Positions 25,036 to 35,740 of a stretch of 35,740 nucleotides of DNA are shown here, in pieces (positions within the stretch are counted from its first letter, which is position 1; each line of letters opens with the position of its first letter). The stretch covers positions 1-35,740 of the IMG/VR virus record IMGVR_UViG_3300007735_000668; one strand, given 5' to 3'. The translations under genes and the position numbers were made by a program. The stretch is from a virus. The notes beneath the pieces were generated by a model. The model did no database searches. It was not told the DNA's origin and saw only the letters and a program-made list of their open reading frames with translations.

Positions 25036-26573
25036 TACGCACCTAACCAACTAGTTGCGGCGACTGGGCGCTGCGTATAGCCATCACTGCGCCGTGCCGC
25101 ACGCTCGTAGCCTGACTCGCGGCTGGCCACCGGAAACGCGAACGTCACCGCAAGGGCGTCTGCTGCATCCGGCGAGGCGAGGCCGCGTGACTTCATCTCT
25201 TTCTTGCCTTCCAAATAGATCGTGCCTGACGAATCGGGCTTCTTCATCGGGCCGGTCAAGTCCGCTTTCAACTGCCGATCATTCGGGATGCTGGCCGTTT
25301 TGAGCCATTCCTTCATCGCGCCCCACATCTCGGCGCGCTTGTTACCCCACATGACCGGCTTGCTGGACTTCCAGCCGAAGTTCACTCCCCGCACCTTGTA
25401 TCGCTGTTCTTTTAACCTGTCAAGTATGCCGTAGCCAAGACCACCTTCATCGATGATCGTCAGTGCTGGCCGGTACTCCTCGATGGCATCGATCACCCGG
25501 CCAACGGTCGTCATGGTGTCCTCGCCGTGGTAGCGCTTGATCGCGACTAAATCCCGTCCTTGCCGGACGACGATGACTGTTGCGTCCGCGCCGCCGCGAG
25601 CTGGGTCAACGCCGATAATAATTGGCGCCGTTTCGTCCTTGTAGCGTGGCCGACTGGCGGCGTCGTCGATAGCACTCGCACCAATAAACTGATCTTCGCC
25701 AGCCGATGGAAATTCACCGTAGACTTCAACCCGAGCCTGCGGCGAATCTTCGCCATACTCCGCAATGATCTGCTCATAGATTTGCTTGTCCGTATCTTCG
25801 ACTGTGCGTGAGTCGATGTTCTCCGTCTGCCAGAAGTTGCGCTTGGCGTGGAAACATTCGTAGAAGTAGCCTTGGTTGCGCCGTGGGTTGCTGAACGCAA
25901 ACCAGTACCGGTCTAGGATTGGTTCGGTGAAGAAGCCCGCACCGACCGACCAGATGGCGTCTGGTATACCGGAGGCTTCATCGAAGATTAGCATCATGCC
26001 GTCGTGGTTGTGCACACCCGCGTAGCTGTCGGGGTTCTCTTCCGACCACAGCTTGCCTTCGGCTGCCCAGTAGCGCGTACCCTTCTTCAAGTCGCGCTCG
26101 ACCAGTTCCGTCAGCCACTTGGCGGGGGTCAGCTTGGTTGCGCTGATCTCCCACCAGTGGTTGTTGATCACCATCGCCTGCCACTTGGTCAGCTCACCCC
26201 ACGTCACGGAGCGCAGCTGCGCCTCACTGTTGGCGGACACGATGACGGAAGACCCGATGCGAGTCGTCAGCATCCACAGCACTAGCCATGACACCAAGGC
26301 TGACTTACCGATACCTCGGCCAGACGCGACCGCTGTGCGCAGGGCGTCCATGTCGACCTGCCCCTTGTTGGTCTTGATGTGCGTGGCAATGCGTCGCAGT
26401 ATCTTGCGCTGCCAGGTGCGCGGTCCTTTGAACTTGGCCAGCGGTGTGTTGGCTTGCCCCCACGGGAACGCGAACAGCACGAACGCCTCGGGGTCGTCGG
26501 CTATCTGCGGCGCCCATAGGCGCGCCATCAGTAGCTGTTCGCCCTCGGCGTCATAGATCGGCTGTTGCGCCAT
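25035..26573 (-). CDS. terL: Terminase large subunit
   Basis: This 512-residue protein is the DNA packaging motor and nuclease. The ATPase domain shows Walker A ASGRGIGKS (residues 83-91) and Walker B MMLIFDEA (193-200, D198 and E199). The RNase H-like nuclease domain shows D323 in GVDPARGG, D375 in IIDEGGLG, and SPDAADAL with D469 and D472 as candidate metal ligands. It works with the small subunit encoded just upstream (23-bp overlap) and docks on the portal. P22 gp2 is 499 residues long. Only a weak binding site precedes the ATG, so coupling to the small-subunit gene is likely. Confidence 0.95.
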   Translation of the reverse strand: MAQQPIYDAEGEQLLMARLWAPQIADDPEAFVLFAFPWGQANTPLAKFKGPRTWQRKILRRIATHIKTNKGQVDMDALRTAVASGRGIGKSALVSWLVLWMLTTRIGSSVIVSANSEAQLRSVTWGELTKWQAMVINNHWWEISATKLTPAKWLTELVERDLKKGTRYWAAEGKLWSEENPDSYAGVHNHDGMMLIFDEASGIPDAIWSVGAGFFTEPILDRYWFAFSNPRRNQGYFYECFHAKRNFWQTENIDSRTVEDTDKQIYEQIIAEYGEDSPQARVEVYGEFPSAGEDQFIGASAIDDAASRPRYKDETAPIIIGVDPARGGADATVIVVRQGRDLVAIKRYHGEDTMTTVGRVIDAIEEYRPALTIIDEGGLGYGILDRLKEQRYKVRGVNFGWKSSKPVMWGNKRAEMWGAMKEWLKTASIPNDRQLKADLTGPMKKPDSSGTIYLEGKKEMKSRGLASPDAADALAVTFAFPVASRESGYERAARRSDGYTQRPVAATSWLGA

Positions 26574-27000
26574 GTGTCAGTTTGGTGGGTAAGGTTTGTG
26601 GTTGCTGTTCGGTGATCAGACCGTCGATCACACGCTCTTGCGCCTGTTGCAGCGCCTGCGTGATGCTGATCTTGTTCGTGATGTCGACACTAATCTCTTG
26701 ACGTGCTGTCCAGCCGTGGCTGTGCTGCAGTATAGCCAGCGCCGCCTTGGCGTCGCCTGCGCGGGCTGCGTTGCGCAGATGCTGCGAGGCCTCCATCTCG
26801 GAGTCAGCACGGCCCTTCTGTTCCGCCATCGCAGCCACAGGATCGAGCTCGCACAGCTGCCGGTACTCGGTCGGCAGCAATCCAGCCGCTAACGCCAGCG
26901 AGTCACCTTTCAGACCCAAAGCAGCGGCGTCATAGATCGCCTGGAGACGCGCTTCGGTCGCCTCCACTTTGCGCGGGGTGAACGGGATGGATTTGAACAT
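26551..27000 (-). CDS. terS: Probable terminase small subunit
   Basis: The 149-residue helical protein lies immediately upstream of the large subunit and overlaps it by 23 bp. An N-terminal helical part (EARLQAIYDAAALGLKGDSL, ALAAGLLPTEYRQLCELDP) looks like a helix-turn-helix DNA-recognition region. A central AGDAKAALAILQHSHGWTAR and a C-terminal helix (ITQALQQAQERVIDGLI) follow, as in other small terminases with C-terminal oligomer-linked tails. No Shine-Dalgarno is seen before ATG 27000. A TAATAT lies eight bases upstream but no matching -35 is evident. The role is inferred from position and domain pattern. Confidence 0.82.
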   Translation of the reverse strand: MFKSIPFTPRKVEATEARLQAIYDAAALGLKGDSLALAAGLLPTEYRQLCELDPVAAMAEQKGRADSEMEASQHLRNAARAGDAKAALAILQHSHGWTARQEISVDITNKISITQALQQAQERVIDGLITEQQPQTLPTKLTHGATADL

Positions 27001-27123: not shown

Positions 27124-27268
27124 GTTAGTGAGCACTCACTTCATGCAGCCAGGTTAGTGAGTACTTACTTACAAGTTAGTGAGCGCTTACTAACAGTTGC
27201 TAGCCTAACAAGTTAGTGAGTACTAACTTACAGTTGCTAGCCTGGCAAGTTAGTGAGTACTCACTAAC
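27124..27268. repeat. Five 20-bp palindromic iteron-like repeats
   Basis: Copies start at 27124, 27153, 27175, 27212 and 27249. All begin GTTAGTGAG. The last, GTTAGTGAGTACTCACTAAC (27249-27268), is a perfect palindrome; the others have one or more changes in the right half. The last three are spaced 37 bases apart and their 17-base linkers are nearly identical (AGTTGCTAGCCT then AACAA or GGCAA). The pattern suits binding of a dimeric replication initiator, repressor or small terminase. Confidence 0.9.
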
Positions 27269-27290
27269 ATCTGTGGGCGGTTTAGGTTGC

Positions 27291-27327
27291 CAACAAAAAG
27301 CGAGGGCCGAGGGCCCTTTTTTTGTTG
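27291..27327. terminator. Strong bidirectional intrinsic terminator
   Basis: The core stem AGGGCC/GGCCCT (27303-27308 with 27312-27317) has a GAG loop. It is flanked by CAACAAAAA on the left and seven T then GTTG on the right. The flanks can extend the stem, and each strand has a U-run after the hairpin. No gene on either strand obviously ends here, so it may insulate the two operons or end a short untranslated RNA. Confidence 0.8.
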
Positions 27328-27345
27328 CCTTTTTGCTACTAAATC

Positions 27346-27354
27346 TGTGGATAA
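27346..27354 (-). promoter_or_regulatory. Perfect DnaA box
   Basis: TGTGGATAA on the plus strand is the complement of the consensus DnaA box TTATCCACA. It is set in A/T-rich DNA beside the iteron array. One perfect 9-mer could arise by chance in a genome this size, so its weight comes from its location. Confidence 0.6.
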
Positions 27355-27377
27355 CTTTTTTCTTGCCAAAAAGCTAT

Positions 27378-27588
27378 GTTAGTCATGTTAGTCATGTAGT
27401 CATGGAAATAAAATCGCACGGCGCGCAGACATGCGCACGTCATGGCATGGCATTGTTGCCATATAGATATCAAAAATAAAAACCCTTAAGGTCCAATCTA
27501 AAAAATGACTACGATGACTAACAAATAGTTAAAAGCCTGATCCTGCCTTGATTCCCACGTTAGTCATCACGCGATTTTTCATGACTAA
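27378..27588. repeat. Second repeat family: 9-bp GTTAGTCAT in both orientations
   Basis: GTTAGTCAT occurs at 27378-27386 and 27387-27395, with a shortened GTAGTCAT at 27396-27403. The inverted form ATGACTAAC or a variant occurs at 27505-27512, 27514-27522 and 27581-27588. A further direct copy is at 27559-27567. The motif shares GTTAGT with the larger palindromic repeats, so one protein might bind both. Confidence 0.8.
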
Positions 27589-27653
27589 AAATCAGCTAAA
27601 TTCCGTTACAAATCAGTGCCATTCCGACAACGCAAAAAAGTGTAAAATAATCC

Positions 27654-27681
27654 TTGACATTGCAAAACAATCTGCTACAAT
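27654..27681 (+). promoter_or_regulatory. Strong sigma70-like early promoter
   Basis: A perfect TTGACA (27654-27659) is followed after 16 bases by TACAAT (27676-27681), with TG at 27673-27674 forming an extended -10. It would start transcription near 27688 and drive the plus-strand early operon from 27744. Confidence 0.85.
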
Positions 27682-27743
27682 GGTTTTCAGCAACACAATG
27701 ATTTACAGAGTAACTGACTATTTTTTAATCACGGGAGCAAAAA

Positions 27744-30745: not shown

Positions 30746-33064
30746 TTACTTGACCAAACGCACGGCGGCGGGCGGCGGTGTTTCCTCTACCATCCGGCGC
30801 AGTTCAGATTTCGACACGGTATCGGCCAGATCAGGCGCAGCGAATACATGCTTGCGCGTGCTAAATTCCCTCGACATAAGCCGCCCCATGTCCACCCATC
30901 CGGCCTCTTTAAGCGCGTGCAAAAGCGCTTGCTGTACTACCCTAGTACCCATCGGCGCACCGCCTTGTAGACGGTCACAGAGCGCGTAGAAGGGTGATGC
31001 AACCACGCCCGCTGAGAATTCACCCAAGCGGCGCTCGATCATCTCGACAAGGTACGATTCGGCCGTCGATCGGCCTTGCTCGACCATGATGATTTTGGCC
31101 TCGGTAAGCGGTGGGGTGCCTCCAGGATTGAACCGCGACACGTCACGCTGGTACAGCCACGCTGCTACCGCTGAGCATCCGCCGTTATCCATCCAATCCC
31201 AAAAGCGTTTGCCGTCTTCCTCGGCCATGCGCGGCGCGTCTGAGTACACCACAAACCAGCGCCGATCTTCAGACGGTAGCGACAACGGCACGCGCTCATT
31301 CGAGAACGCAAGCACAAACATTCGATTCAACGCTTGGTACGGGTGCATTCCCTTGCGGTTAACGGTCACAAACTCGGGCGGCGCTGCAATAATCGGTTTT
31401 AGATGGTTCTCGAGCGCGCGACGGTCTTTCGCTTCGCTCTGGCGCAGCTCTTCGAAGACCATCACCTCGGACTCGTAGTTATAGCCCCACTGCGACTGTA
31501 TTTCCTCGTTACGCACAACCGCTACGTTGCGCCGGATCTCGCGCTGACCCCCAACAGCCCACAAAAACGGCTCGTATAGCGAATCTTTACCGCTACCTTG
31601 CTTGCCGATATGCAGGATTGCATGGTTAATCTTAACGTCGGGGTGCTGTATCTTGTGCGCCAATACGTTAAGCAAATGCTCTCGCTCGTATTCCTCAGGA
31701 ACCATCCGGTGCAAATGGTCAAGCCAAGGCGTTATATCGCCCGCTACGCACGCCGGACGCGCGTTTGACCAGCGATTGCCGAATACTTGGCCCTCACGCG
31801 ATACCAGCACCGTCTCGCCAGCGGCGTAAGTAATGCCGGTGACGGTCAATGCGCCCTTCTTCTGACGGTTCTCATCAAAGCAAATTGACGCCTCAATGCG
31901 GCGCGGCGTCTTGCTCTTGTGTAATGAGTAGCAGCTAACGTGTCGAAAGAGTGCGTTAAAAGTGCCGCGACTAATCTCGCGTCGATCCACCATATCAAAG
32001 AACGCATCTTCGTTTTCAATATACGCGAAGCGCTCATACCAGTTTTCCTTCTCAACCCTATCTAATTGCTTTTTCTCTACCTCGGCGATCACCTCGGCGC
32101 CCTTGTCGGGAAACGCCTCGGTGGGCTGCAGTTTGGCAAGCGTCTGATCCATGACGGCCGCCAACAGCTCATCGCGCAAGCCTGGCGCGTGTTTCGGACC
32201 GCCCTGCGCGGCCACCCAATCAAGGAACGTGTGCGAGTCAAGATCAAGGCAATGCGAGTGCAGGCAACAGTACGCACGCATGGCGGGGTTGTACCGGCCC
32301 TCGGGGTTGCCATCGGTGTGCTCGCCCGAGTTCGGGCAAATAACACCCGCCCACCCTTGCGGGTTCGGGCGCGAGAGTAGCAGCCCCTGCCCCGACAGCC
32401 ACGCCATCACATCATCCGCCCCATCGTCGGATAATCGGATCGGGCGCAGCGTCAGCGAGTCAGCTGGCGCGGGCGTCACGCCTAGCCCTGCGCAGAGCTC
32501 ATCCAATGTGTACTCGCGCTCGGGGTGGAACTCGACCAAGCGAGCTGCGAATCGGTTCTTGTTCGGTTTTAAGTTGATCGAACCTGGTAGCCGAAAGTTG
32601 CGCACAGGGTTGCAGGCGCCAGGGTCGGTGTAGCCTGCATCCGCTATCGCGCGGATCGCAGCAGCGTACTCGCCCTTCGTCGGCTGATCACTGAATGTGT
32701 AGCCCCACTGGTACGAACCCTCGGACGTCTCGATGACCCACGTCGGCGGCACGGTCGGGGTGTTCGGCGCTTTCTCGGGGTCGCCTACGTCATCGAGTAC
32801 CATCACCAGCACGTACTCGCAATTGGCTGCGGACGCGCTCACATGGCCGTTTTCGAAACGGTCGATGATGAATGACGCCGTGTTGCCGTAGATCGCCCAA
32901 TCAGGCTTGATGTTGTGACTCGGCAAGTACGCAGGCCACGTACACTTGATGGCGCCATCGGCGTGGAACTGCAGCTCACCGCCTTTGAGTTGTGGTTTCT
33001 GGCGCACAATCAGCGCCGCCTCGCCTTCAGGCGCGAGATTCTGGTAGTATTCTAGAAATTCCAT
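30746..33064 (-). CDS. Primase-helicase (primase-like domain, zinc motif, SF3/D5-like ATPase)
   Basis: This is a 772-residue replication protein. The N-terminal 210 residues include a metal-binding-like VLVMVLDDVG (D91-D92) and RNFRLPGSINLK, typical of RepB/archaeo-eukaryotic-type primase domains in phages. A cysteine/histidine cluster (CPNSGEHTDG, later YCCLHSHCLD) near residue 250 looks like a zinc finger. The C-terminal ATPase has Walker A GKQGSGKDS (K493) and Walker B VMVFEELRQ (E538), then NRMFVLAFSNERVPLSLPSE, matching D5/SF3-like DUF5906 helicases. It should prime and unwind at the replication fork. AAGGA lies upstream. It is the last gene of the replication operon. Confidence 0.9.
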   Translation of the reverse strand: MEFLEYYQNLAPEGEAALIVRQKPQLKGGELQFHADGAIKCTWPAYLPSHNIKPDWAIYGNTASFIIDRFENGHVSASAANCEYVLVMVLDDVGDPEKAPNTPTVPPTWVIETSEGSYQWGYTFSDQPTKGEYAAAIRAIADAGYTDPGACNPVRNFRLPGSINLKPNKNRFAARLVEFHPEREYTLDELCAGLGVTPAPADSLTLRPIRLSDDGADDVMAWLSGQGLLLSRPNPQGWAGVICPNSGEHTDGNPEGRYNPAMRAYCCLHSHCLDLDSHTFLDWVAAQGGPKHAPGLRDELLAAVMDQTLAKLQPTEAFPDKGAEVIAEVEKKQLDRVEKENWYERFAYIENEDAFFDMVDRREISRGTFNALFRHVSCYSLHKSKTPRRIEASICFDENRQKKGALTVTGITYAAGETVLVSREGQVFGNRWSNARPACVAGDITPWLDHLHRMVPEEYEREHLLNVLAHKIQHPDVKINHAILHIGKQGSGKDSLYEPFLWAVGGQREIRRNVAVVRNEEIQSQWGYNYESEVMVFEELRQSEAKDRRALENHLKPIIAAPPEFVTVNRKGMHPYQALNRMFVLAFSNERVPLSLPSEDRRWFVVYSDAPRMAEEDGKRFWDWMDNGGCSAVAAWLYQRDVSRFNPGGTPPLTEAKIIMVEQGRSTAESYLVEMIERRLGEFSAGVVASPFYALCDRLQGGAPMGTRVVQQALLHALKEAGWVDMGRLMSREFSTRKHVFAAPDLADTVSKSELRRMVEETPPPAAVRLVK

Positions 33065-33110: not shown

Positions 33111-33926
33111 TTAGATACTGCACCATCCGCATTCTTCTGGCGTCAATTCTCGCACTTCTGCGCCGTCTAAAAAACTGCGCACATCCCACACGCGGTGCAC
33201 TTTAATGTACTTCCGAGGGTTACCTTCTTGCTTAAACTTTTCTTCTATTTCTAACAAGCGTTCCAGATTTTGCCGCCCAAACGGATCACTTGCAACCAGT
33301 GACCATTCTGATTTGCGCATCAACAGACAAGGATAGCACCCCACACGTTTATGCCCTTTGGCGTACAACGGATTCATCGGCGCATTCTCGGCTTCCAAAT
33401 GCGCAAATACATCTTCCGTAGTCCACGTCACAATTGGCAGACGTGTAGGGATACGCCCTACGGACTCACGCAATTTTTTATTGCTACTATAAAAGCCGCT
33501 GATATCACCTAAATCAAAGACGTCTTCCGCGCTTAATTCGCCGTATCGTTGCGTACGGTCGCGGCTTTCATCAGAACGCATACCAAACCAAATTTCGCAG
33601 TTGTCATTGTTATACCCTTTTTCCTGCAACCAATGCAAAAACGGCTCTTGCTTTAGTTCGCGAGTGCAGCCACGCGCCGCACTATTTGGGAAATACTGCA
33701 CTTTTTTGATAAACCCAAACATATCACCGTGTTTACTTTTAGTATGCTCAACCGTAACCCCGTAAAAACGTTCGATTTCTTCGACGTGTTTATAGGTAAG
33801 TGGGTGGTCGAACCCGGTGTCTTGGTGAACGCATACAATTTGCTCTCGAGGGATTCGGGCTAGTGCAAGCGAAAGCACAACCTGAGAATCCTTACCGCCA
33901 CTGATTGGTACAATAGTTGTTTTCAT
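33111..33926 (-). CDS. PAPS-reductase-like ATP pyrophosphatase (adenine nucleotide alpha hydrolase family)
   Basis: This 271-residue enzyme has the PP-loop SGGKDS at residues 9-14, which binds ATP for adenylation. RGCTRELKQEP resembles the W-C-T-R-x-L-K block shared with PAPS reductase and DndC. Two CxxC pairs, GCYPC and the C-terminal CGWC, could bind metal or an iron-sulfur centre. The lack of other sulfate-assimilation genes and the place between DNA polymerase and primase-helicase argue for a role in nucleic-acid modification or thiolation rather than sulfate reduction (inference). Its ATG overlaps the polymerase stop by four bases. Confidence 0.9.
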   Translation of the reverse strand: MKTTIVPISGGKDSQVVLSLALARIPREQIVCVHQDTGFDHPLTYKHVEEIERFYGVTVEHTKSKHGDMFGFIKKVQYFPNSAARGCTRELKQEPFLHWLQEKGYNNDNCEIWFGMRSDESRDRTQRYGELSAEDVFDLGDISGFYSSNKKLRESVGRIPTRLPIVTWTTEDVFAHLEAENAPMNPLYAKGHKRVGCYPCLLMRKSEWSLVASDPFGRQNLERLLEIEEKFKQEGNPRKYIKVHRVWDVRSFLDGAEVRELTPEECGWCSI

Positions 33927-35740
33927 TTTCCATACCTCGTCATTACTTCAACCTCTGCCGACAATGGCAGACCATCCGCCCAATCGGGCGGCGTACACAT
34001 CACTTGTTGCAGGGTATTGGGTGCATCGGGATTGGCCGTCTCCAGAACGATCTCATCATGTACGTGCAGCACTACCTCATCCAGCTGGCGTAAAGAATGC
34101 CGCAGCAGATCGTTGGCGACTGCCTGCGTTATATTCTCACAGGCCAGCCCCCGCCACAAGCGAGCACGCGGCCATTCCTTCGCATCCGCTGCCGGTTTCC
34201 ACGCGGCCTTCACGTACGTGATCTCATCGCCCTCAAACTTAGCAAACGGATAGCAAAGAATACGGCCCGACGGCAGCGCGTACCAGAGATGCTGGCGGTC
34301 GTACAAGTACGTCACACGTCCGGCGGAGAACTCGCGTCCAGGGTTGCGCAGCGCGCGGGTGTACGCCTCTTCGAGCTTGGCCCAGTAGCGCACCGCCCAC
34401 GCATTCGAGCGGCGCCATGCGTCGACAATCCGACGGGCGTCGGACTCCGGCAGGATGACGCCGTAGTTGCGGCCCATCGCGGCGAACGCACCGACCGAAC
34501 CACCGAAGCCAAGCGAGAGAATCGCGACCTTGCCGATCTGGCGCTGCTCCTTGTCGACCGCATCCTCGGCCACGCGGTAGATACCGGCGGCCTCACGTTT
34601 GTAGATGTCACGGCCATCGCGAAAGACTTGCAGCACCTCATCGGCCTGCGGGTCGGCGGACGCCCACGCAGTAACGCGCGCCTCGACGGCAGACCAGTCA
34701 GCAACAACGAATTGTTTACCAGGTGCAGGGATCAGTGCGGGCCGGAGCATTCCCTTGAGAACATCAGTAACGCGTTTTCCAAATCTTGGGGTGATGCTGT
34801 GGCCTCTGACCATAGCGTGCCGTACATCATCGGGCTCTGCTGCACACTTGCGGGTGAAGTTGTGGACTTGAGCGCCGTAGCTTGACGCGCGCCCAGTGGC
34901 CGAACCTCCTGCGAAGACAAATGCACCTCGTACACGGTAATCAACTTCGTCAGCCAGCTCGCTAAGGCGGCTGAACTTCGCAACCGACGACGCCCAGAGA
35001 TCGTCGGCACATTGAATGACGTCCGCAACATGGGTCGGAATCTCATCGGGGTTTTCCTCTGCAAAAGCCAATAGATTGGCGCGTACCGCCTTATCGATAC
35101 TGTACTTCAAGTCGCCATCTTTGTAGACCTCCATCATCTTCAACGCCTGCGGCCCGACGCGCTCGAGCACCCACTGGCGCATCTTGGGGCTGCGCACCGA
35201 CAGAATCTCACCCTCGGTCAAGTCGGCTACCAGCGTTTCAATCTCTTCGAGTTCGGTCGATGCGTACTTGATCGCTGCTTGAGCTAACGGCAAGTCCAGC
35301 AGCACGCCACGGTCGTTGATGCGCTCGTTGACATGGTAGTCGGCCAGCTCCTGCTCGGACAGCGGACGCATGGCCTGGCTGATCGCGCGCATGGTTCTGA
35401 CGTCCTGCTCGCAGTAGGCGACCATCTCGGCCATTAGCTCTGGCGAATTGTTAAACGATCCATCAGCGCGAGGGATGGAAAGAGCGCGGATAAGTTGGCT
35501 TCCTCGGTGGTCTTTGCGCATGTTGCTGCTGATGGCGCGTCCGACGTCTTCAAGGCTGCCCGGTAGGCAGTTAGCACGCGCTTGAGCAGCGGTGCAGACG
35601 AACTGCTCGAGTTGAAAGTTACACTGTAAGACATACCAGAATATGAGCCGCTCGAAGGCTGCGTTATGCGCGTAGATTGGCCCGGTGTGAGCGCGCACGG
35701 ATTCCGGAAAAGGATCAGTGGGCCGCCACGTAACAACCTC
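33923..35740 (-). CDS. Family A DNA polymerase, main part (5' end continues at base 256)
   Basis: This part carries the rest of the exonuclease region and the polymerase domain. The frame is open through the right edge and joins the 1-256 segment to give 648 residues. In full-length numbering, motif A is VVADWSAVEARV with D391. Motif B is the KEQRQIGKVAILSLGFGGSV region. Motif C is HVHDEIVLE with D605. These catalytic residues fit an active replicative polymerase related to DNA polymerase I. It is downstream of HNH and overlaps the PAPS-reductase-like gene by ATGA. The apparent GTG start at 35698 is internal and not real. Confidence 0.95.
   Translation of the reverse strand, partial: EVVTWRPTDPFPESVRAHTGPIYAHNAAFERLIFWYVLQCNFQLEQFVCTAAQARANCLPGSLEDVGRAISSNMRKDHRGSQLIRALSIPRADGSFNNSPELMAEMVAYCEQDVRTMRAISQAMRPLSEQELADYHVNERINDRGVLLDLPLAQAAIKYASTELEEIETLVADLTEGEILSVRSPKMRQWVLERVGPQALKMMEVYKDGDLKYSIDKAVRANLLAFAEENPDEIPTHVADVIQCADDLWASSVAKFSRLSELADEVDYRVRGAFVFAGGSATGRASSYGAQVHNFTRKCAAEPDDVRHAMVRGHSITPRFGKRVTDVLKGMLRPALIPAPGKQFVVADWSAVEARVTAWASADPQADEVLQVFRDGRDIYKREAAGIYRVAEDAVDKEQRQIGKVAILSLGFGGSVGAFAAMGRNYGVILPESDARRIVDAWRRSNAWAVRYWAKLEEAYTRALRNPGREFSAGRVTYLYDRQHLWYALPSGRILCYPFAKFEGDEITYVKAAWKPAADAKEWPRARLWRGLACENITQAVANDLLRHSLRQLDEVVLHVHDEIVLETANPDAPNTLQQVMCTPPDWADGLPLSAEVEVMTRYGK
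35614..35740. repeat. Right copy of 127-bp terminal overlap
   Basis: It is identical to bases 1-127 and should be removed once when the circle is closed. It lies inside the DNA polymerase gene. Confidence 0.9.

Follow-up and report, generated by a model that had tools for sequence, protein, structure and literature searches.

Between the small terminase gene terS (26551-27000, minus strand) and the early genes on the plus strand of this phage genome lies a cluster of 9-bp repeats, upstream of terS, and the question raised by this locus is what the repeats are for and which protein reads them. The window, by which we mean the whole stretch of 35,740 nucleotides analysed here, is a 35.7 kb phage genome encoding a portal, a terminase, DNA polymerase A, a primase-helicase, a DUF2800 nuclease and a SNF2-type helicase, and our search found no phage records with similar DNA. 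It carries a 127-bp repeat at both ends (1-127 and 35614-35740), as in a circular map; since two related contigs also have an end repeat of 127 bp and one has 123 bp, this is probably the overlap of a circular assembly and not a biological terminal repeat. The genes at 249-803 and 33111-33926, which by eye we take to encode an HNH-type endonuclease and a PAPS reductase-like protein, have no or few matches among 21 related records.

The repeat family of GTTAGTCAT occupies 27378-27589 with four exact and three near copies, arranged in four blocks. Block A holds three plus-strand copies in tandem, two of them exact (27378..27386, where relatives carry other words, and 27387..27395) and the third, GTAGTCAT, one base short (27396..27403). 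Block B consists of two reversed copies, namely GTAGTCAT on the minus strand at 27505..27512, which reads ATGACTAC, the reverse of GTAGTCAT (inverted repeat I4), and an exact copy on the minus strand at 27514..27522. Block C is a single direct, exact copy on the plus strand (27559..27567) and block D a reversed near copy, TTTAGTCAT, on the minus strand with one mismatch (27581..27589). All four exact copies in the entire record fall inside this cluster. When one mismatch to GTTAGTCAT is allowed, the whole window contains 12 matches against 5.05 expected, a number reached by 2 of 100 shuffles, so that near copies elsewhere are unsurprising and the striking feature is how the copies cluster. Only two sites in the genome have any 9-mer at least four times within 215 bp, the GTTAGTCAT cluster and a palindromic array to its left, and such clusters arose in 0 of 2000 dinucleotide shuffles of 27270-27740 and in 0 of 50 shuffles of the whole genome. 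The repeats are real and chance is excluded as their source; a sequence-only reading of this DNA had reported at least seven full or near copies in both orientations with three in tandem, all of which we found where it had placed them, and the comparison with genome and shuffled sequence that it had proposed comes out in its favour, with the array as the only match.

The surroundings of the repeats are those of a candidate replication origin. To the left are five copies of a 20-bp palindrome, GTTAGTGAGnnCTCACTAAC (27124-27268, upstream of terS), a terminator-like hairpin (27304-27323, GGGCCGAGGGCCC and a T run) and, between the hairpin and the repeats, a perfect DnaA box on the minus strand, TTATCCACA (TGTGGATAA on the plus strand; 27346..27354), called with the DnaA consensus. 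To the right is a sigma-70-like promoter sequence near 27654. The stretch between blocks A and C (27441..27560) is AT-rich, with 100-bp windows from 27441 to 27461 reaching 67% AT, among the highest values of the genome, and by its composition it may serve as the unwinding region. Several copies of a short intergenic word, an adjoining AT-rich region and a DnaA box, the last being a feature of many origins if not of all, are what characterizes an iteron origin and are found together here. The GC skew of the genome shows no turn at the repeats, with its minimum at 35248, and is uninformative on the origin.

In order to compare the locus across relatives, we searched with terS, which returned 80 viral contigs, and extracted the sequence upstream of terS in the window and in 63 of these contigs; 49 were non-redundant and 36 were read. 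A genome collection added two loci only, and a scan seeded with L155 returned mostly contigs already in the set. The palindromes and the DnaA box recur in the relatives, and the blocks keep their positions and have similar neighbours, yet the word that fills them varies (GTTAGTCAT, GTTGGCTAT, GTAGGCAAT, GTGGGCAAT, GTGGGTCAT, GTGGACAAT, GCACGTCAT or TTGGGTCAT). L013, L025 and L016, for instance, carry GTGGGCAAT, GTGGGTCAT and GCACGTCAT, respectively, and two words are mixed within many phages, such as GTAGGCAAT with GTTGGCTAT in L005 and GTGGATAAT with GTGGACCAT in L037. The terS and terL of L005 are 97% and 99% identical to those of the window, and the two loci agree at 215 of 275 spacer columns but at only 30 of 54 iteron columns; for L008, which has the same word as the window, the values are 216 of 275 and 47 of 54. 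The words therefore turn over faster than the DNA around them. In L206 and L207, the deepest relatives, the wings described below differ and no clear word of this iteron family was found in either.

The protein that follows the word is the primase-helicase (772 amino acids; 30746..33064, minus strand), which is present in 23 of the 26 records searched and which we propose as the initiator. In an alignment of 22 primases the last 60 residues cluster by word and not by overall kinship, with the motif GRLMSREFSTRKHVFAAP in the window and G003 and GRLMSREFSARKHVFAAP in G005, all of which have GTTAGTCAT, and GRLASREFSTKKHIFCAP in G001, which has GTAGGCAAT/GTTGGCTAT. A primase search gave 80 loci, and a set of 92 loci was reduced to 70 for a column scan by removing L155, which has one site, and those with at least 98.5% primase identity to a kept locus. 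Sites were collected by one type-blind pattern, and each variable column was scored by leave-one-out prediction of the word composition of a locus. Over the 503 variable columns of the primase, residue 730 ranked first (0.402) and residue 735 second (0.287), the next column reaching 0.206. The best columns of the other proteins scored 0.157 for terS (88 columns, same 70 loci), 0.127 for terL (351 columns, 66 loci) and 0.142 for polA (425 columns, 41 loci). The closest control for linkage is provided by two genes that lie between the primase gene and the repeats; their best columns reached 0.137 (44 loci) and 0.053 (47 loci), against 0.475 and 0.426 for residue 730 on the same loci. In a partial Mantel test the word correlated with residues 726-745 given residues 1-600 (r 0.279, p 0.001), and a small partial correlation was left for residues 1-600 (r 0.128). 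The small early genes were also considered as readers of the word and rejected, being mostly not conserved, and the two conserved ones are poor predictors.

The domains of the primase-helicase were examined by profile and structure searches. Pfam matched DUF5906 at residues 486-602 above its cut-off and RepB_primase at 86-169 weakly, below the cut-off, with no Toprim match at E 0.01; PDB entries 6k9c and 6k9e, which are labelled Primase and presumably represent the NrS-1-type primase, match 478-608 weakly. Primase and helicase are thus found in one chain, as in a P4 alpha-type initiator, and the order of a weak RepB_primase match, DUF5906 and a predicted winged helix may correspond to that of pRN1-type proteins. 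A model of the whole protein (mean pLDDT 67.7) was set aside, and the C-terminal region was modelled from the last 135 residues, with a mean pLDDT of 81, rising to 94 and 96 in the two blocks containing the wing. In this model two helices (692-700 and 711-720) are followed by a strand (724-729), a loop (730-737) and a further strand (738-742), an arrangement that predicts a winged helix with residues 730 and 735 in the wing loop. The codons for 730-737 lie at 30851..30874 (minus strand), about 3.2 kb from the repeats with early genes between, and, taking the domain model together with the covariation of residues 730, 731, 732 and 735, we propose that they hold the determinants of specificity. 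VIA-align gave a best Z of 6.0, to an extended winged helix, among weak matches to varied winged helices. Foldseek returned no match for the C-terminal domain at E <= 0.001, a PDB profile search returned two chance hits only and Pfam none for the window's domain; the solved P4 domain was absent from the fold and profile match lists, there was no sequence or fold match to it, and the fold had no significant match to any solved initiator domain. In a 24-row alignment variation is seen in the wing loop, the helix preceding it being largely invariant, and specificity therefore appears to lie in the wing.

We then asked how individual wing residues relate to individual bases. Among the 172 C-terminal columns, over 143 loci, residue 732 was the most informative on base 1, residue 731 on base 2 and residue 730 on base 3, and from this covariation the code looks collinear and antiparallel. 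At loci found from another seed, GTGGAC words occur in 19 of 20 with K730, the twentieth contig being too short to reach the repeats, and the class without R732 has TTGGGTCAT or ATGGGTCAT, found without a pattern. Two rules, K or R at 730 with G at base 3 and R732 with G at base 1, were stated before later loci were collected by two further scans (93 loci non-redundant with the earlier ones, 56 with a clear word); loci with a word score below 8 were excluded at this step (24 of 73, 4 of 46 and 37 of 93). In these 56 loci, read with a word pattern written after the raw list had been viewed, in which bases 1, 3, 4 and 7 were free and the others restricted, G3 is present in 28 of 33 K/R730 loci versus 5 of 23 others, and G1 in 45 of 48 R732 loci versus 1 of 8 others (Fisher 4e-6 for each). 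Of the five K/R730 misses, one is L349 and the other four have C as third base (xxCC or similar words); three R732 loci are without G1.

For all 143 clear-word loci, a set from which 4 of 147 had been dropped as their extracted word was xxCC, taken as a reverse-phase reading of TTGTGGAC, K/R730 goes with G3 in 70 of 71. G1 is found with R732 in 101 of 105 loci and with other residues in 2 of 38, T731 with C2 in 5 of 6, and S731 with T2 in 131 of 135. A730 occurs with G (36), A (10) or T (6) at base 3 in 52 loci and so reads as permissive, and the ten M730 loci have T (6), A (2) or C (2). The wing types and their own words are exemplified by the window (M730, GTTAGTCAT), L005 (A730, GTTGGCTAT), L163 (K730 and R732, GTGGACAAT) and L312 (K730 and S732, ATGGACAAT). 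L027 and L034 do not fit, having GTGGGTCAT with an A730 wing that is elsewhere paired with GTTGGCTAT. A single GCACGTCAT, the word of the N730 wing type, is present in the putative origin of the window at 27435-27443, and also in L130 and L131.

The pairing of wing and word has arisen repeatedly. On a tree of the primase without the winged helix (136 rows, a further 7 of the 143 being too short), K/R730 changed at least 24 times and R732 at least 11 times. In independent pairs the base changed the same way as residue 730 in about 11 of 18, and as residue 732 in about 8 of 9, and the opposite way in none for either; for residue 731 there are only three independent pairs, all of which obey the rule. 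The combination of GTTAGTCAT with M730-S731-R732 recurs in L398, L438 and L441, where the rest of the primase is 62% identical to that of the window.

In light of these data, we propose that the 9-bp repeats are the iterons of the phage origin and are bound by the primase-helicase through the wing of its C-terminal winged helix, a reading to which we assign a probability of roughly 0.83. The most likely mechanism, modelled by analogy on the iteron-binding C-terminal domains of P4 alpha, SaPI Rep and Cch2, is that the winged helix would bind blocks A to D, after which the primase-helicase would open the AT-rich stretch, its helicase ring would be loaded and the primase would prime synthesis by the phage polymerase. 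Only 40 of the 70 loci have a perfect DnaA box close to the putative origin; the box is independent of the word, and its presence suggests that host DnaA may assist. The wing loop would set specificity, reading in the order opposite to that of the DNA: at base 1, R732 would pair with G, and G, A or S at that residue with T or A; at base 2, S731 would pair with T and T731 with C; at base 3, K730 and R730 would pair with G and M730 with T, A or C (mostly with A at base 4), A730 being permissive. Residue 735 would correspond to bases 3 to 7, and word and wing would evolve together. That the code is collinear and antiparallel at about one residue per base, and that wing and word have switched jointly many times, outpacing the DNA around the iterons, we consider somewhat better than an even bet. 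Fast joint switching would be expected if diversifying selection acted on origin identity, whether it came from co-infecting phages, from satellites or from nucleases directed at origins.

Other explanations have to be weighed against the same data. The repeats lie upstream of the sigma-70-like promoter at 27654, and initiators that autoregulate through iterons are known in general, so they might be operators for that early promoter, acting through the primase-helicase or a regulator, with the origin elsewhere; however, what the word tracks is an enzyme with primase and helicase domains and no small regulator, most of the small early genes lack conservation, and the repeats have AT-rich DNA and a DnaA box among them, which makes this reading improbable. 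Their position upstream of terS also recalls a packaging start, of pac or cos type, read by the small terminase encoded in the adjoining gene, as terminase sites are often near terS. We rejected the packaging site, and hold it very improbable, because the word is poorly predicted by the terS columns, the best of which falls far below primase residue 730 on the same 70 loci. Equally slight is the probability that the primase end and the repeats merely move together by recombination, with no contact between them. Phages are mosaic and the partial correlation with residues 1-600 persists, as passive covariation would have it, but the wing codons are kilobases away with intervening genes that predict the word poorly, within the primase itself the signal peaks at the wing residues, the independent pairs never go the wrong way and the same pairing is seen in distant lineages.

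The sequence-only reading had further suggested that one protein reads a common half-site, GTTAGT, in both the palindromic array and the 9-mers, and indeed GTTAGT is present in both in the window. Of the 70 related loci, 56 have at least two palindromes irrespective of their iteron word, and exact GTTAGT half-sites of the array number 116 of 202 for loci with A at primase residue 730, 104 of 182 with K, 18 of 28 with R, 15 of 22 with G and 16 of 22 with N, loci whose typical words are without GTTAGT; in the three GTTAGTCAT phages they number 21 of 30. The shared half-site was rejected because the array keeps GTTAGT whatever the iteron word, so this reading is already contradicted and we give it almost no credence. 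Judged by the covariation, the 9-mer follows the primase wing and the array does not, and the reader of the constant palindromes should then be another, constant protein. What stands of the earlier proposal is a family of short protein sites in the early and origin region, with a link to the start of replication as its best reading.

Rep of the geminiviruses is a rolling-circle protein of plant single-stranded DNA viruses that is not known to have a winged helix, and in this it differs from the phage protein. PMC12548392 describes geminivirus iterons whose places are conserved and whose words differ among close relatives, matched to Rep, a likeness to the fixed places and changing, protein-matched words seen here. 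Closer in architecture is P4 alpha, described in passages of PMC4234260 as combining primase and helicase in one protein with a C-terminal winged helix that binds origin repeats; the protein of the window is likewise a single primase-helicase chain with a predicted C-terminal winged helix, and has putative origin repeats, but the P4 primase is a Toprim enzyme and only a weak RepB_primase/PrimPol match is found here, and a wing code is absent from the passages on P4 alpha in that source. The same source gives pRN1-type proteins (PrimPol, SF3 helicase and winged helix), including that of phage BIP-1, the domain order predicted here; for BIP-1 its authors found no iteron origin and proposed a stem-loop, unlike the present phages in which iterons track the winged helix. 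In the Rep proteins of SaPIs and PICIs and in SCCmec Cch2 the C-terminal domain of the helicase recognises short iterons, and in PICI origins two iteron sets flank an AT-rich region (excerpts of PMC7581432 and PMC6092414); there the origin is directly downstream of rep, whereas in the window about 3.2 kb, with early genes in it, separates the 3' end of the primase-helicase gene from the repeats. According to passages of PMC8263062, the RepA_N DNA-binding domain and the origin of Vibrio PLE covary and swap together, and a phage nuclease attacks the origin via the iterons; that protein belongs to another family and its whole domain differs between two groups, in contrast to the many single wing-residue changes described here. 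Among the titles and abstract openings listed by our searches of the open-licence literature there was nothing on a wing code or on iteron covariation in such phages.

If the proposal is correct, these phages show in nature, and at population scale, the code by which a replication initiator recognizes DNA; the code has switched many times independently, so that its rules can be stated and tested in a few binding assays. It would also assign origin and initiator for a phage group common in public viral contigs, weaken the case for a stem-loop origin with replication proteins of this type, at any rate within this group, and turn the cause of the fast turnover of origin identity into a testable question.

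Some relatives carry additional elements upstream of terS. In L006, L007 and L023 the putative origin region contains an insertion, an additional small open frame (about 85 codons) that has TAACGTTA-like repeats. L015, L027, L034, L040, L052, L056 and L057 have an insert with an imperfect inverted repeat around TTTAAAATCAAGGGCTT, located between the DnaA box and block B and replacing the usual tandem block A. In L387 and L389, which have an H730 wing, ACGGCTACG is repeated very often (score 32) between primase and terS, where iterons would be expected, and may be either an origin repeat or a coding repeat.
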